Positions 4,659 to 36,612 of a stretch of DNA of 64,000 nt are shown here, one piece after another. Position 1 is the first letter of the stretch. Each line of letters starts with the position of its first letter. The stretch is from a candidate division WOR-3 bacterium (GTDB lineage: Bacteria > Hydrothermota > Hydrothermia > UBA1063): assembly GCA_039803545.1 (NCBI GenBank), contig JBDRYS010000001.1, positions 561,866 through 625,865 of the forward strand, in the 5' to 3' direction. Both the position numbers and the translations under genes were made by a program. The notes below the pieces were generated by a model. That model saw nothing but the letters and a program-made list of their open reading frames with translations. It was not told the DNA's origin and ran no database searches.

Positions 4659-4665
4659 CAAATTA

Positions 4666-4694
4666 ATGATAATTCGCTGAGTTTGAAAAACCAA
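4666..4694 (-). promoter_or_regulatory. Promoter for leaderless mnmG
   Basis: On the minus strand TTGGTT (4694-4689), 17 bases, TATCAT (4671-4666), then seven bases to the ATG at 4658. The -35 hexamer directly abuts the -35 hexamer of the divergent promoter at 4683-4688. The match to consensus is moderate, but the geometry repeats that seen at recF/DUF763. Confidence 0.55.
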
Positions 4695-4711
4695 ACCGCA
4701 TACGTTAAATT
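4683..4711 (+). promoter_or_regulatory. Promoter for leaderless GAF/HD-GYP gene
   Basis: TTGAAA (4683-4688), a 17-base spacer and TAAATT (4706-4711) lie seven bases before the ATG at 4719. No ribosome site is seen, so the mRNA is probably leaderless. The promoter overlaps the divergent mnmG promoter, so polymerase binding at the two should be mutually exclusive. Confidence 0.6.
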
Positions 4712-4718
4712 TAAGTAC

Positions 4719-5879
4719 ATGGACAACTCTGGAATTTATAAAATTTTGTACGATATTGGCATATCGCTTTCTTCCCAACCAGATATCAACAAATTATTAG
4801 AGAGGATAGTTGATGAGGCTATTGAGCTTGCGAAATGTGATGGAGGAACGATTTACACCTTAAAAGACAATCACCTCATATTCAAGGTCTCGAAAAACAA
4901 AGTTTTAAAGCAGCAATTTTTTGCTGACGACATTACTGACCTCTTTTCGGTTAAAAAAATTCCCCTTTCTAAAAGCAGCCTATCAGGATATTCCGCACTA
5001 ACAAAGGAAATTTTGCATTTTCCAGATAGAAAAAGTGCCCATGAAAGGGGATTCGCCTTTGACCTTGTAGCACTCTCAGGAGTTGATTATGCCGTAGAAT
5101 CCTCATTAACAATGCCCCTCGTTTCCTCCACAGGTGAGATAGTCGGGGTTTTACAACTCATAAATGCACGAGAAGGTGATAAGATTGTACCTTTTAAGGA
5201 AGAAACGATAGAATTGATGAAATTTTTCGCTTCCCAAGCAGCTGCCGCCCTTCAGAATGCAAGACTTATGGAGGAACTCAAAGAGGTACAATTGGAATCA
5301 ATATATATGCTTTCGACCGCTGCGGAATTCAAAGATAAGGTCACCGGTGATCATATTAAAAGGATTTCGAAGGTGTCCTTTTTGATTGCAAGAACTTTGC
5401 AAACCAGCCGGGAATTCTCCGAGTTGATCCTATACGCAAGTCCAATGCACGATATAGGAAAAGTTGCGATCCCCGATTACATTTTAAATAAACCCGACAG
5501 GCTTAACCCTCAAGAATGGGAATTAATGAAAAAACATGTTATCTTTGGGGCACAAATTATTGGAGAATCTAAATATCCGCTTTTCAAAATGGCGAAAAAT
5601 ATTGCCCTTTTCCATCATGAACGCTTTGACGGAACTGGATACCCTTACGGTCTTTCGGGTGATAAAATTCCGTTAGAAGCAAGAATTGTTCAAGTTGCAG
5701 ATGTCTTTGATGCCCTCGTCTCCGAGAGACCCTACAAGTCCGCCTGGACCTTTGATGATGCTGCAGATTACATAAAGGACATGAAAGGTCAACAATTTGA
5801 CCCGGATGTCGCAAAGGCGTTTTTAGACAAGTTGGAGTTAATTTACAAGCTCTACCAGAAGCCAGAGCAACATGAATGA
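4719..5879 (+). CDS. GAF-HD-GYP cyclic-di-GMP phosphodiesterase-like protein
   Basis: This 386-residue protein has a GAF sensor domain (about residues 10-180) and an HD-GYP domain (about 195-370). The metal-binding HD pair is visible in [14 protein letters not shown] (about 243-256), and the family signature [14 protein letters not shown] is at about 299-312. HD-GYP proteins hydrolyse cyclic di-GMP; the GAF domain probably senses a small ligand or redox state. No receiver or membrane domain is present, so it should be cytoplasmic. The start at 4719 is chosen because the family homology begins there and a promoter sits directly before it. Its last eight bases overlap thiL. Confidence 0.88.
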
Positions 5880-29345: not shown

Positions 29346-30191
29346 ATGGGACTCTTGGGTGCTCACGTTTCCATTGCAGGTGGTGTTGAAAATGCCCCAG
29401 ACAGGGGTCATGAATTAAAATGTGACACAATTCAGATATTTACGAAAAACCAGAGACAATGGATCGCAAAGGAACTCTCCGAAGAATCGATTAAAACTTT
29501 TAAAGAAAAAATAAAACTTTACAATCTTCAAAAACCCGTAGTTCACGACTCCTACCTAATAAATTTGGCCTCCGCTAATAAAGAGACCTATGAAAAATCC
29601 AGGGAAGCTTTTATAGACGAGGCGTATCGGGCTTACCAGCTGGAGATACCCTACCTTGTCTTTCATCCTGGCTCGAATCCCGATATTGAAGAAGGAATCA
29701 AAAGAATTTCCGAGGCGCTCAACATAACAATCTCCAAGGTAAAAGATGTAATTCTTCTTATTGAAATAACAGCTGGGCAGGGAAATGCAATAGGTAGAAG
29801 ATTTGAAGAAATTGCGGAAATTATTGAACAGGTTGAAGAAAAGTCTCGAATTGGTGTCTGCTTTGACACGGCCCATGCCTTTGAATCGGGCTACGATATA
29901 AGAGACGAGGAATCTTATCATAAAACCTTTGAAAACTTTGACCAAATTATCGGGCTCCACTATCTGAAATGCTTTCACCTGAACGACTCTAAGACCCCTT
30001 TGGGATCCAACGTAGATCGTCATGAACACATAGGTAAAGGTGAAATTGGGCTCAAAGCCTTCGAACTTTTAGTCAATGATCCGAGGTTCCAAGAACACCC
30101 GATGATCCTTGAGACACCTGGAGCTGAAGAATTCTACGAAGAGAATTTAAAAGTGTTAAGGAAGCTTATAAAGTCCAGAAAGAAGCGCTAA
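29346..30191 (+). CDS. nfo: Endonuclease IV (AP endonuclease)
   Basis: The 281-residue TIM-barrel enzyme starts MGLLGAHVSIAGGVENA and carries the zinc-site motifs HPGSNP, IEITAGQGN, GVCFDTAHAF, FHLNDSKTPLGSNVDRHEHIG and ILETPG. It cuts DNA at abasic sites and some oxidised bases. There is no good ribosome site, so translation probably depends on coupling to the ferritin-like gene two bases upstream. Its last four bases overlap the convergent DUF763 gene. Confidence 0.95.
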   Translation: MGLLGAHVSIAGGVENAPDRGHELKCDTIQIFTKNQRQWIAKELSEESIKTFKEKIKLYNLQKPVVHDSYLINLASANKETYEKSREAFIDEAYRAYQLEIPYLVFHPGSNPDIEEGIKRISEALNITISKVKDVILLIEITAGQGNAIGRRFEEIAEIIEQVEEKSRIGVCFDTAHAFESGYDIRDEESYHKTFENFDQIIGLHYLKCFHLNDSKTPLGSNVDRHEHIGKGEIGLKAFELLVNDPRFQEHPMILETPGAEEFYEENLKVLRKLIKSRKKR

Positions 30192-31261
30192 AGAAAATAC
30201 TTTTGCAATCTTCTTAAGGCTTCCAACTCTTCCCTGTGACCCAATTTAGCCATTTTGATTGCCTTCTCCAAAATTTCGATGGATTTGTCATATACGTCCC
30301 TTCTTACCCGATAAGGATATCCATCCTTACCTCCATGTGCAAAACTATAAATGACTGGATCTTCATAACTTGGCCTCGCACCGTAAATCACATCCGAAAT
30401 CAAGACCAGTGCTCTCATACTCATAGGGCCAAGCCCCCTTACCGCCAGAAGGCTTTCAAAATCCTGTGGAATTGTCTCATAGGTTTTTATGAGAACCTTT
30501 TTCAAATTTTCCGGTCTCATATCCTTTAAAGTAATGTAGTGCCTTGACGGCATTTTGTAAGAAATAGCCTTCTGGTAAAGCGAAATAACTTTGTCGGGTG
30601 CAGTCCCCACTAAGTCAAGGATTACCTTTCGCGCATCTTTTGATTTCCTCGATGTTATGTCAAGGACGCTCCGTTCTCTTCTCTCAGAAATGATTCCAGT
30701 ATGCGGTTCCAAAGTGAAATCCTGCACCTTTTCCGAAAACCAATGATATCTCCTCGCAGTGCGGGACTCTTCGTTCATCCCTTGCTGAATTACACTCCAC
30801 TTGCCTTCTTTTGTATAAATGATCACATGATGGTACAGAGAATATCCATCCTGCAACAACACAGAATCGACCTTTGCACTCAGTCTACTGGCATAAATGA
30901 TCCTTTCGGCATCGAAACCAAAGGCATCACCCGTTTTTTTAACCTCCTCAGGCACTAACAAAGAGTGCTTACCCTTCCCACCTGCTACAAAAATACCCAA
31001 TTCCCCTTCAAGGCCTTTAAGGCCGGACTTTATAGCGTAAGTTACAGTAGTTGTCACCCCTGAAGAATGCCAGTCAAAACCAAGTAGACACCCAAGGGAT
31101 TGAAACCAGACCGGGTCTGAAAGTCTTCTTAGAACCTCTTCTCTTCCAAATTCCATCACCATTATGGATATAATGCTCCTCGCAAGCTTAGTCATTCTTT
31201 CCATCAGCCAGTGAGGGGCTTTTCCGCCGTGAAGGGGAAGGGTCATATATCCCGTTTTCAT
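30188..31261 (-). CDS. DUF763 protein with helix-hairpin-helix-like motif
   Basis: This 357-residue protein starts MKTGYMTLPLHGGKAPHWL and has FDWHSSGVTTTVTYAIKSGL, typical of the DUF763 family found in thermophiles and archaea; no function is established that I know of. Residues about 270-293 (LLAVRGLGPMSMRALVLIS) have the form of a DNA-binding helix-hairpin-helix of the glycosylase/endonuclease III kind, followed by a conserved YEDPVIYSFAHGGKDG stretch. It is convergent with endonuclease IV and shares an overlapping divergent promoter region with recF. A DNA-repair role is inferred. The ATG has no ribosome site and a -10 box six bases upstream. Confidence 0.85.
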   Translation of the reverse strand: MKTGYMTLPLHGGKAPHWLMERMTKLARSIISIMVMEFGREEVLRRLSDPVWFQSLGCLLGFDWHSSGVTTTVTYAIKSGLKGLEGELGIFVAGGKGKHSLLVPEEVKKTGDAFGFDAERIIYASRLSAKVDSVLLQDGYSLYHHVIIYTKEGKWSVIQQGMNEESRTARRYHWFSEKVQDFTLEPHTGIISERRERSVLDITSRKSKDARKVILDLVGTAPDKVISLYQKAISYKMPSRHYITLKDMRPENLKKVLIKTYETIPQDFESLLAVRGLGPMSMRALVLISDVIYGARPSYEDPVIYSFAHGGKDGYPYRVRRDVYDKSIEILEKAIKMAKLGHREELEALRRLQKYFL

Positions 31262-31267
31262 ATGCTA

Positions 31268-31296
31268 ATAATAGCGTCTTTTTATTGAAATTTCAA
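31268..31296 (-). promoter_or_regulatory. Promoter for leaderless DUF763 gene
   Basis: On the minus strand TTGAAA (31296-31291), 17 bases, TATTAT (31273-31268), then six bases to the ATG at 31261. Its -35 is one half of the palindrome TTGAAATTTCAA; the other half is the -35 of recF. Confidence 0.7.
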
Positions 31297-31313
31297 GGAT
31301 TTTGCCGTAAAAT
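31285..31313 (+). promoter_or_regulatory. Promoter for leaderless recF operon
   Basis: TTGAAA (31285-31290), a 17-base spacer and TAAAAT (31308-31313) are followed by six bases and the ATG at 31320. The predicted transcription start coincides with the start codon, and no ribosome site exists. Confidence 0.7.
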
Positions 31314-31319
31314 TATCAA

Positions 31320-32327
31320 ATGATCAAAGAGATAACTCTGTCATCCTTCAGAAATTTCAAAGCCAAAAAATTCGACTTTGACAGCGGAATAAATTTAATT
31401 TTAGGCCCAAACGGAAGTGGAAAAACCAATTTGCTGGAAGCAATTTGCTATTTGTCACAGGCCAAATCCTTTAGGAGAGTTTCTGACAGAGATTTAGTTA
31501 CCTGGGGAGAAAACTTTTTTAGAATTGAAGCCACTTTCGAGAAAGATGGATTAACACATAACATTGTAGTATTTTACGACAGTGAAACAGGAATGAAAAA
31601 GATTTTCATCAACAATAAAGCCTTGGACCGAGTGGCAACTCTTTTTTCAATACTACCGAGTTTGATCTCATCGGATCGAGACCAGGACATAATTGACGGT
31701 CCACCAAGGGAAAGAAGAAGGGTTATAAATAGGCTAATTTCTATAACAAACAGTGAATACATGAGGCTTATCCTTGATTACACAAAGGTTGTCGAAAACA
31801 AGAACTACCTACTAAGAAATCGCAAAGTTGAAGAGCTAAAGCCCTGGAATCAGAAACAGGAACAACTTTCCCATGAAATTATTCGCTACAGAAAAAATTT
31901 CATTGAAAAGATTAAGGACCACTTTTCGGCAACTTCTCAGGAGTTCCTGAGAGGCAAAACCGCAGATATAACATACAACCCTTCTATAGAAGAGGAGGCT
32001 TCTTTTGACAATTTTGTTAAAGAAGAATTAGAAAGAGGGTACTCCTTTCATGGCCCGCACAGGGACTTGATCGAATTTTTAATTGATGGGAAACCTGCCA
32101 AAATTTTTGCTTCAGAAGGAGAAAAGCGCTTGATAATTCTGGCCTTTTACTTTACCTTTTTAAACATATTCAACCCAAATTCTATAGTGATACTGGATGA
32201 GCCCTTTAGTGTCCTGGATAAAAGGGGGGTCGAGCTGGTCTTGTCACGCCTAAGAAACCAATCCTTTATCAGCGCACCATATCTTGACTTAGAGCATCAA
32301 AGAATTACGAGAGTCATAAAATTATGA
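31320..32327 (+). CDS. recF: DNA replication and repair protein RecF
   Basis: RecF is an SMC-like ATPase that helps load RecA at gaps. The 335-residue protein has Walker A GPNGSGKTNLLEAICYLS (about residues 29-46), the family's YRKNF and SFHGPHRDLIEF regions, SEGEKRLIILAF as signature motif and Walker B VILDEPFSVLD. It is slightly shorter than many RecF proteins. The next gene, dciA-like, overlaps its stop by four bases, and gyrB follows, a classic replication gene cluster but without dnaA or dnaN. Confidence 0.92.
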   Translation: MIKEITLSSFRNFKAKKFDFDSGINLILGPNGSGKTNLLEAICYLSQAKSFRRVSDRDLVTWGENFFRIEATFEKDGLTHNIVVFYDSETGMKKIFINNKALDRVATLFSILPSLISSDRDQDIIDGPPRERRRVINRLISITNSEYMRLILDYTKVVENKNYLLRNRKVEELKPWNQKQEQLSHEIIRYRKNFIEKIKDHFSATSQEFLRGKTADITYNPSIEEEASFDNFVKEELERGYSFHGPHRDLIEFLIDGKPAKIFASEGEKRLIILAFYFTFLNIFNPNSIVILDEPFSVLDKRGVELVLSRLRNQSFISAPYLDLEHQRITRVIKL

Positions 32328-32611
32328 GAAACCTGGACGATTCCGTAAAAAAAATCTTGGAGAATCTCGGGATTGAAAGAAATGTAGACCTTACTGAGAA
32401 GGCAAAAAAATTGCGAGAATATTTGGTAAAAACTTACGGGGAGGAAAACATAGGAAAAGTGAAAGTTAAAAAGGGAAAAATTTTCATTGAGATTAAAAGT
32501 CCTGTCCTTAGAAATGAACTTTTTATGAGGAGGGCGGAACTCCTTTCCATCATAAATGGAAAAGAGTTGCAAAATAACCCAGAAAATATTGTCATCGTAG
32601 GGAGGTTGTAA
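32324..32611 (+). CDS. dciA: DUF721 / DciA-like protein
   Basis: The 95-residue basic protein has the DUF721 fold pattern: an N-terminal helix (SVKKILENLGIER), then KVKKGKIFIEIKSPVLRNELFMRRAELLSIIN. That second region resembles the KH-like core, where LR.EL..R...L...L is conserved. DciA proteins help load the replicative helicase DnaB where DnaC is absent. Its place between recF and gyrB is a conserved context for this family. It overlaps recF by four bases and abuts gyrB. Confidence 0.8.
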   Translation: MRNLDDSVKKILENLGIERNVDLTEKAKKLREYLVKTYGEENIGKVKVKKGKIFIEIKSPVLRNELFMRRAELLSIINGKELQNNPENIVIVGRL

Positions 32612-34534
32612 ATGGACGAAAAAATCTTTGAGCAAGAGCAAAATAACTACACTGCGAAAGAAATCAAAGTTCTTAAAGGTCTTGAAGGGGTTAGAACACG
32701 CCCTGCAATGTACATCGGAGATACGTCTAAACAGGGCCTGCACCACTTAGTTTACGAAATTGTGGATAACGCTATAGATGAAGCACTGGCTGGCTTTTGC
32801 ACAGAAATAAAAGTGACAATAAGAAAAGATGGAATGATTACGATAAGAGACAACGGTAGAGGAATTCCTGTAGACATGCACCCTGAAGAGAAAATCCCTG
32901 CTGTAGAGATAGTTTTTACCTATTTGCATGCTGGAGGAAAATTTGGATCTAAGGCATATCAAATCTCCGGTGGTTTACATGGTGTGGGTGCATCCGTTGT
33001 AAACGCCCTTTCAGAATACCTCGAAGTCAAGGTGTTCCGAGACGGGAAAATTTATCACATGGCCTTCTCTAAAGGCAAAAAGATTAAGGACCTTGAGGTT
33101 ATAGGAGAAACCGATGAACACGGTACTGAGGTCACCTTCAAACCCGATATTGAAATCTTCAAGAATATAAACTTCGATTTTGAATTGTTAAGTGAAAGGC
33201 TGAAGGAACTTGCCTACCTTGTAAAGGGAATTAAAATATCCATCGAAGATCAGAGAACAGGGAAATACAAAGAGTATCAATTTGAAGGTGGATTAAAAGA
33301 ATTCCTTAAAGAACTTGATGAGGGCCAATATGTACTGAATGAAAAGCCTTTTTACTTCCATAGGAGATTTGAAAATGAAAAGGTCGAAGTCGAAGTTGCC
33401 TTAGAATATAATAAAGGCTATGAAGAAGTACTTATCTCTTTTGTTAACACGATAAACACCACAGAACACGGGACCCATGTCACTGGGCTGCGCCAGGGGC
33501 TTACCCGAGCTCTTAACGACTTTGCAAGAAAAAATAACCTAATAAAGGAGAATCAGGCCTTTCAAGGTGAGGATTTACGAGAGGGACTTACCTGCATTAT
33601 CCATGTAAAGTTACCTGACCCACAATTTGAAGGACAGACAAAAACAAAACTGGGCAACACTTATATAACCGGCCTTGTTTCTTCTGCAGTCTATGAAGAA
33701 TTCACAAGATACCTTGAAGAAAACCCTAACGATGCAAAAGTTATTATTGGAAAATGCCTTGAAAACCAGAGGGCAAGAGAAGCAGCGAGAAAAGCGAAGG
33801 AAATAGAAAGGCGAAAATCTTCCTGGGATGCGAACGGGCTTGCAGGAAAGCTCGCCGATTGTACCACCAAAGACCGGTCCAAGGCAGAACTATTTATTGT
33901 TGAGGGCGAATCAGCAGGTGGTTCAGCCAAACAGGGAAGAAACAGAGAATTTCAAGCCATTTTACCCCTTAGGGGTAAAACTTTAAACATTGAAAAGGCA
34001 TCCTTCGAAAAGGTCCTTGAAAACGAACAGATTAAGATATTGATTCAGGCTATTGGCACGGGCATTAAAGACAACTGCGTACCAGAGAACTCACGCTATT
34101 CTAAAATCATCATAATGACCGATGCAGACGTCGATGGTTCTCACATCAGAACCCTTCTCCTAACATTCTTTTACAGGTATATGCAGCCCCTTATCGAACA
34201 CGGGTATATTTACATCGCCCAACCACCTCTTTACAAACTAAAGGCCAAGAAAGAAGAAAAATACGCTTACACCGAGGAAGAAAAAGAAGAATTTATAAGA
34301 ATCCACGGGATTGAAAATGTAACCATACAGAGGTACAAGGGTCTTGGTGAAATGAATCCCGAACAATTGTGGGAAACGACTATGGATCCTGCACGCAGAG
34401 TTTTAAAGAAAGTAACCCTTGAAGATGCTGCCCAAGCAAGTATGCTAATTAGCATCCTAATGGGGCCAAAAGTCGAACCTCGTAAGAATTACATAATGGA
34501 ACACGCAACTCTTGTTACAAATCTTGACATTTAA
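32612..34534 (+). CDS. gyrB: DNA gyrase subunit B
   Basis: The 640-residue ATPase subunit contains the GHKL motifs EIVDNAIDEALAG, RDNGRGIPVDMH and GGLHGVGASVVNALS, then the transducer, and the TOPRIM motifs LFIVEGESAGGSAKQGR, PLRGKTLNIEKA and MTDADVDGSHIRTLLL. It ends with the usual C-terminal LMGPKVEPRKNYI. With GyrA it introduces supercoils. GGGAGG precedes the start. Length and order are normal and no intein is present. gyrA is outside the window. Confidence 0.96.
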   Translation: MDEKIFEQEQNNYTAKEIKVLKGLEGVRTRPAMYIGDTSKQGLHHLVYEIVDNAIDEALAGFCTEIKVTIRKDGMITIRDNGRGIPVDMHPEEKIPAVEIVFTYLHAGGKFGSKAYQISGGLHGVGASVVNALSEYLEVKVFRDGKIYHMAFSKGKKIKDLEVIGETDEHGTEVTFKPDIEIFKNINFDFELLSERLKELAYLVKGIKISIEDQRTGKYKEYQFEGGLKEFLKELDEGQYVLNEKPFYFHRRFENEKVEVEVALEYNKGYEEVLISFVNTINTTEHGTHVTGLRQGLTRALNDFARKNNLIKENQAFQGEDLREGLTCIIHVKLPDPQFEGQTKTKLGNTYITGLVSSAVYEEFTRYLEENPNDAKVIIGKCLENQRAREAARKAKEIERRKSSWDANGLAGKLADCTTKDRSKAELFIVEGESAGGSAKQGRNREFQAILPLRGKTLNIEKASFEKVLENEQIKILIQAIGTGIKDNCVPENSRYSKIIIMTDADVDGSHIRTLLLTFFYRYMQPLIEHGYIYIAQPPLYKLKAKKEEKYAYTEEEKEEFIRIHGIENVTIQRYKGLGEMNPEQLWETTMDPARRVLKKVTLEDAAQASMLISILMGPKVEPRKNYIMEHATLVTNLDI

Positions 34535-36298: not shown

Positions 36299-36583
36299 AG
36301 ATTCCGGCGGTTAACTTTGTGCACCAAGCTACTCGAAACACGAAGTTTAACGATTAGAGCACAAAATATTTGAAGACCAAATCCGGCACCAACGTTGAAA
36401 TGCAATACCACGACTTAAAGCCGCTTTTGTATCAAGAAAACACTTTTTGAAGAAACTGTGTGTAAGAACTTTTCGCTACTTCTTGTTTTTAAAGGACAGC
36501 TGCCCTCTCTCTTTTCCTATTTTTACTTTTCAAGAGACTACCCCATTGCGAGAGTAGATTTAACCTTGAGGAACGCCGAAAAC
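36299..36583. other. Intergenic region before SBBP gene
   Basis: This roughly 285-base stretch has no intact gene. A near-perfect inverted repeat (AACTTTGTG near 36313 and CACGAAGTT near 36340) lies beyond the -35 of the leftward gene. The stretch 36495-36594 reads as a short open frame with SLFSYFYFSRDYPIARVDLTL, which echoes the signal peptide and DYPIA start of the mature protein at 27289; it may be a relic. Confidence 0.4.
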
Positions 36584-36612
36584 TTGACGACATAAAAAGC
36601 CTAAATTATAAT
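36584..36612 (+). promoter_or_regulatory. Near-consensus promoter of SBBP protein
   Basis: TTGACG (36584-36589), a 17-base spacer and TATAAT (36607-36612) put transcription start near 36619. A GAGGGGGT ribosome site follows, as in the secreted protein at 27289. Confidence 0.8.

Follow-up and report, generated by a model that had tools for sequence, protein, structure and literature searches.

How are two divergent genes served from an interval of only 58 bp, and does the packing of both promoters into it make the genes take turns? The question is raised by positions 31262-31319 of the window, by which we mean the whole 64,000-nucleotide stretch of DNA analysed here from a candidate division WOR-3 bacterium. 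On the minus strand the interval leads into a gene for a DUF763 protein of 357 aa (30188-31261; PF05559, E=3.2e-132) and on the plus strand into recF (31320-32327; 335 aa, SMC_N/AAA matches), the identities that both genes had received in a first-pass annotation. At its far end the DUF763 gene meets an endonuclease IV-like gene (29346-30191, plus strand) tail to tail, with a 4-bp overlap (30188-30191) that includes the stop codons. Within the interval, TTGAAA-17-TAAAAT-6-ATG reading into recF interlocks with TTGAAA-17-TATTAT-6-ATG reading into DUF763. The recF -35 hexamer TTGAAA (31285-31290, plus strand) and -10 hexamer TAAAAT (31308-31313) are separated by a spacer of 17, and the 6-nt gap to the ATG (31314-31319) predicts a leaderless start at 31320. 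On the minus strand, the DUF763 -35 hexamer TTGAAA (31296-31291; 31291-31296 in forward numbering) abuts that of recF, a spacer of 17 separates it from TATTAT (31273-31268; forward 31268-31273), and the 6-nt gap (31262-31267) predicts a leaderless start at 31261, about 59 bp from that of recF. The -10 elements are exactly 34 bp apart, which means that the -35 elements have passed each other and abut, in inverted orientation, as a 12-bp core TTGN6CAA (31285-31296, here TTGAAATTTCAA). From one -10 to the other the arrangement occupies 46 bp (31268-31313) and can be written ANNNTA-N11-TTGN6CAA-N11-TANNNT. Each promoter matches at 10 of 12 positions, and both are among the top promoter-like sites in a scan of 6.5 kb. 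When the 58 bases were shuffled (n=400,000, mononucleotide), a 10/12 promoter in the 6-nt position was obtained 415 times on one side and 433 times on the other and not once on both sides. The opposed promoters of the first-pass annotation, with their hexamers, 17- and 6-nt spacings and coordinates, were all confirmed in the sequence.

Conservation of the arrangement was followed through a family of five WOR-3/Hydrothermota MAGs (G000-G004, of which G000 is the source genome). DUF763 and recF are divergent neighbors in all five, with intergenic lengths of 58 bp in G000 to G003 and 64 bp in G004, and all four hexamers keep their columns in an ungapped alignment. The recF -35 reads TTGAAA, TTGGAA, TTGAAT, TTGAAT, and TTGATT in the five genomes (TTGRAW or TTGATT at the matching column), and its -10 is TAAAAT in four and TATAAT in one. 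On the DUF763 side, TTGAAA is unchanged in 5/5 and the -10 alternates between TATTAT and TATATT with its column kept in 5/5. The register is thereby that of an overlapping divergent sigma70 pair by both scan and conservation, with opposite-strand -35/-10 promoters whose elements interlock, and it has persisted between species that share only 48% identity in RecF. It had been suggested that hexamers and a fixed 6-base gap should persist in relatives; the hexamers do so in all five genomes and the DUF763 gap is 6 nt in all five, including G003 with its GTG start, whereas the recF gap is 6 nt in 4/5 and 12 nt in G004. Misannotated starts were considered as a source of these short gaps and rejected, as the ATG at DUF763 codon 6 is not conserved, the GTG of G003 lies at the equivalent place, and the recF N-terminus looks standard. 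A class-wide functional pairing of recF and DUF763 was likewise rejected: a search of the class found no DUF763-recF adjacency outside the family (f1), the two genes lying apart elsewhere in the class.

The 6-nt gaps raise the matter of how translation begins. At both genes a TANNNT element ends 6 nt before the start codon, and no Shine-Dalgarno motif was found upstream of either one, here or in any family orthologue, which bears out the earlier remark that neither gene has a ribosome site. The spacing is not peculiar to this locus. In the source genome TAnnnT lies exactly 6 nt before the start codon at 34 of 382 genes, compared with about 10 at other positions, and when an acceptable -35 is also demanded the count at 6 nt is 31 divergent starts versus about 4 elsewhere. 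Of the 133 intergenic TTG-17-TAnnnT promoters followed by an ORF, 36 (~27%) stand exactly 6 nt from the start. Ribosome sites dominate in this genome and leaderless starts form a minority class, of which the genome-wide peak at 6 nt makes recF and DUF763 ordinary members. Transcription at this copy thus probably starts at both start codons to yield two leaderless mRNAs, a prediction of the first-pass annotation that is well supported by the conserved hexamers and gaps together with the genome-wide excess at 6 nt. In an uncultured phylum that relies otherwise on ribosome sites, predicted leaderless initiation would be a minority mode in regular use. DUF763 genes of several other WOR-3 families (loci L023, L025, L026, L028, L030, and others) also have a -10 whose end lies 5-7 nt ahead of the start codon and lack a ribosome site. 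Because the leaderless type occurs outside the family, leaderless DUF763 may predate the pairing with recF.

Whether the interlocked arrangement is special to recF and DUF763 was addressed by looking for the same register elsewhere, defined by two spacers of 17, two TTG-type -35 elements, -10 elements exactly 34 bp apart, and a TTGN6CAA core. The window itself holds a second copy, a 60-bp interval (4659-4718) between mnmG on the minus strand and a GAF/HD-GYP-like gene on the plus strand (4719-5879). Its -10 elements are 34 bp apart, its core is TTGAAAAACCAA (4683-4694), both start gaps are 7 nt, and it is conserved in G001 and G002. Counts of the distance between opposed -10 elements covered G000 (1.57 Mb), G001 (0.54 Mb), and 80 kb of G003. 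At 34 bp there were five pairs in G000 and four in G001, where the other distances averaged 0.25 and 0.18 pairs each, respectively. The Poisson probability of at least five in G000 is 7e-6, and it is 1.4e-4 when the recF copy, which suggested the test, is set aside and four remain. The 46-bp pattern was also scanned against a reversed control in 147 genomes of the phylum. Family members carry 5, 6, 7, 4, and 6 loci (G000 to G004), a total of 28 versus 0 for the control; four genomes of a sister family carry 2 loci each, or 8 versus 1; and in the other 138 genomes, with table entries summed, the pattern and the control occur 36 and 34 times. When start codons were required 6 nt off on both sides, matches were confined to the source genus. 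Altogether about ten unrelated gene pairs, some of them orthologous from one species to another, have this register between them. With gene names beyond the Pfam-tested genes of the locus taken from reading the translated sequences, these are DUF763/recF, mnmG/GAF-HD-GYP-like, aminotransferase-like protein/800-aa membrane protein, leuS/secreted protein, DUF1015-like protein/FecCD-type permease, sirtuin/gamma-carbonic anhydrase-like, recJ/HypE-like, and V-ATPase D-like/folD, together with gcvT/GAF protein and DAK-domain-like/HD-domain protein in the sister family. Leaders in some copies run to 18-26 nt, which means that neither leaderlessness nor intergenic length is constant; what stays fixed is the register of one promoter to the other. 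Divergent pairs that are leaderless on both sides occur at various distances, among which the 34-bp register stands out.

A small, AT-rich genome could arrive at this arrangement by chance and compaction, with overlapping promoters simply filling short divergent intervals. For two promoters with 17-nt spacers, 34 bp is the largest distance that allows interlocking without shared -35 bases; 35-45 bp would force hexamers to share bases, and distances of 34 bp or less or of 46 bp or more do not. Distances of 23-33 bp fit equally well, however, and are not favored, with few pairs found there, and the reversed control gave 0 loci in the family versus 28. We consider this explanation unlikely. A smaller excess was seen at 39 bp, with two cases each in the divergent intergenic regions of G000 and G001; this is the distance at which one TTGNCAA could act as a -35 in both directions. 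The possibility that the pattern reflects a general extended promoter consensus, with CAA following the -35 and an AT box at -50, was rejected from non-divergent promoters. CAA stands 9 nt after TTG in 9 of 46 divergent promoters versus 2 of 87 non-divergent ones (Fisher p=0.0012, which is optimistic since the 9 count both strands of some pairs). As CAA tracks the presence of a reverse gene, it is best understood as the partner's -35 and not as a general promoter element.

The core could also be viewed as the binding site of a regulator. The inverted repeat TTGAA-N2-TTCAA would then be an operator through which both genes are controlled, and in the source genome TTGAAATTTCAA is indeed the perfect 12-bp palindrome that the first-pass annotation had pointed out. 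Its counterparts in the other four family genomes are TTGGAATTTCAA, TTGAATTTTCAA (twice), and TTGATTTTTCAA, all imperfect. The palindrome is thus perfect in the source genome only, and what is conserved is the two -35 elements and not the palindrome, as TTGGAATTTCAA and TTGATTTTTCAA show: the symmetry is broken in 4/5 species and the -35 bases are kept. Other copies of the module differ inside the core (TTGACTATTCAA, TTGATTGGACAA, TTGAAAAACCAA) and hold the TTG and CAA ends constant, as expected for -35 elements, with the proviso that these ends are fixed by the search pattern itself. More favorable to an operator is the extra conservation of the adjoining TCAAGGATTTTG. Mean pairwise identity is 0.875 in the hexamers, 0.40 in the DUF763 leader, 0.43 in the spacer used by DUF763 only, and 0.72 in the spacer used by recF only, and the high-identity stretch on the recF side lies within TCAAGGATTTTG. 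In addition, a near copy of the TCAAGGATTTTGCTTTAAAAT stretch occurs upstream of another gene in G004 and likewise in the recF promoter of G035, where DUF763 is not adjacent. Against this, near-matches to the block elsewhere are mostly within coding sequence. A search for TTGAAWTTTCAAGGATTTTG that allowed up to 3 mismatches and covered 60 relatives and the five family members found no regulon, as the excess over the reversed control consisted largely of coding matches. An operator for both genes therefore strikes us as very unlikely. The recF-side spacer (TCAAGGATTTTG) is nevertheless conserved beyond what two promoters would need, hinting at a further protein or a recF-specific element.

Two observations made alongside concern the surroundings of promoters. 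At the recF spacer GGATTTTGCCG (31297-31307), family conservation extends past the hexamers, and the recF promoter of G035 (L036) carries TTGAATTTTCAGCGATTTTG with a spacer that is likewise 17 nt. Separately, a repeat of about 40 bp, TGAAACAATCCCATTTCGAGTAGATTAATTTTGAGGAACGCCG, lies at 36538-36612 and in 13 further G000 copies at a fixed distance upstream of -35 hexamers. The distance from TTGAGGAAC to TTG is 18 nt in 13 of 14 copies and 19 in one, and each continues as TTG-17-TAnnnT. The repeat was absent from the sampled G001 and G003 DNA. It precedes unrelated genes and may be either the site of a species-specific activator or a repeat that carries a promoter.

With the promoters and their recurrence in hand, the reciprocal switch can be assessed. 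According to this proposal of the first-pass annotation, mutual occlusion makes expression of recF alternate with that of DUF763, and gyrB would go along with recF. In its favor, the promoters physically interlock, the arrangement is kept in five species, and polymerase interference at E. coli bidirectional promoters is real once one direction is strongly activated (PMC12825309). The same study found that bidirectional promoters compete little at basal activity: weakening one -35 left output in the opposite direction almost unaltered, and it took strengthening or activation of one direction to bring out competition (PMC12825309). The operon downstream presents a further difficulty. recF heads an apparent operon with a 95-aa ORF (32324-32611, plus strand; no Pfam match) and gyrB (32612-34534, plus strand), the last of which has a GGGAGG ribosome site. 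The end of recF and the start of the 95-aa ORF share 4 bp (32324-32327), and the ORF in turn runs directly up to gyrB at 32612, which makes it probable that gyrB, too, is driven by the recF promoter. With gyrB in the apparent operon, shutting the promoter off would be expected to starve the cell of an essential gyrase subunit. There is no feedback element and no regulator gene at the locus, the identical geometry serves many unrelated gene pairs, and recF and DUF763 are paired in this family only. A dedicated switch is thus not supported, and we regard it as improbable to the same degree as the operator. What does hold from that proposal is its physical premise, well supported by conservation, that the interlocked promoters would admit one polymerase at a time.

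The reading that we prefer, at a probability of roughly 70%, is that the 58 bp represent one copy of a compact bidirectional promoter module that recurs in this order and would provide constitutive, space-saving supply of two unrelated units and not a dedicated switch. Reuse of the register at many unrelated pairs points to a general promoter format, most likely a lineage-specific one. Two sigma70-type promoters, each with a TTG-rich -35, a spacer of 17, and TAnnnT, would point apart with their -10 elements 34 bp from each other. Because each -35 sits inside the partner's spacer, a polymerase on the module would, judging from polymerase size, exclude another, and one at a time could bind in either orientation. 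Both promoters would be active, and any competition between directions would be passive at most.

Why the distance should be exactly 34 bp invites a further explanation in which the two promoters help each other. At this distance each AT-rich -10 falls at about -52 to -47 of the partner, the binding region of the alpha C-terminal domain, and divergent firing might also raise negative supercoiling for both. Either effect would account for an exact preferred distance, and in E. coli the topological coupling between divergent pairs has itself been studied (PMC4469952). Non-divergent promoters in the source genome, however, have neither ANNNTA nor extra AT at that position. Sites for the alpha C-terminal domain also usually tolerate shifts in position, which fits poorly with an exact distance. 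Cooperation of this kind seems to us distinctly unlikely. A broader proposal, to which we give somewhat less than even odds, is that the order (the WOR-3/Hydrothermota lineage) uses the stereotyped 46-bp pattern as its standard element for divergent genes and that the exact register has been selected for a benefit of interlocked -35 elements, be it cooperation, noise coupling, or one-at-a-time firing. Such a benefit, if true, is not described for known bidirectional promoters. The module also offers a simple system for learning whether opposed polymerases compete with, ignore, or help each other.

Several known systems come close to what is seen here. In leaderless, or TA-led, bacterial genes, TAnnnT precedes the start codon by about 12 bp (Zheng et al. 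2011, PMC3160421), and in Deinococcus-Thermus the -10 adjoins the ORF of leaderless genes (PMC12340547). Our locus has in common with these genes the TAnnnT with its 6-nt gap and the missing ribosome site, and we see no essential difference apart from their minority status beside ribosome-site genes in the source genome. Bidirectional promoters in bacteria have so far been portrayed mostly as arising incidentally from near-symmetric -10 elements. As outlined for Warman et al. 2021 in PMC10268837, these promoters share a near-symmetric -10 and have starts 7-25 bp apart with an optimum of 18. They resemble the module in that one segment fires both ways, with one polymerase orientation at a time and a preferred distance (PMC10268837; PMC12825309). 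The recF/DUF763 locus differs from them in having separate -10 elements 34 bp apart, interlocked -35 elements, and predicted starts about 59 bp apart, and each direction of the module serves a protein-coding gene. A second, lineage-specific register of this kind, kept across species and reused at unrelated loci, would show selection on promoter-promoter spacing itself. Overlapping divergent, or back-to-back, promoters in general likewise serve divergent genes from promoters that overlap in a short intergenic region. Unlike them, the module has no evident regulator or operator, both starts at this copy are apparently leaderless, and the register recurs across the order. The recurrent register is a member of this known class of overlapping divergent promoters and is distinct from the symmetric -10 type with its starts about 18 bp apart.
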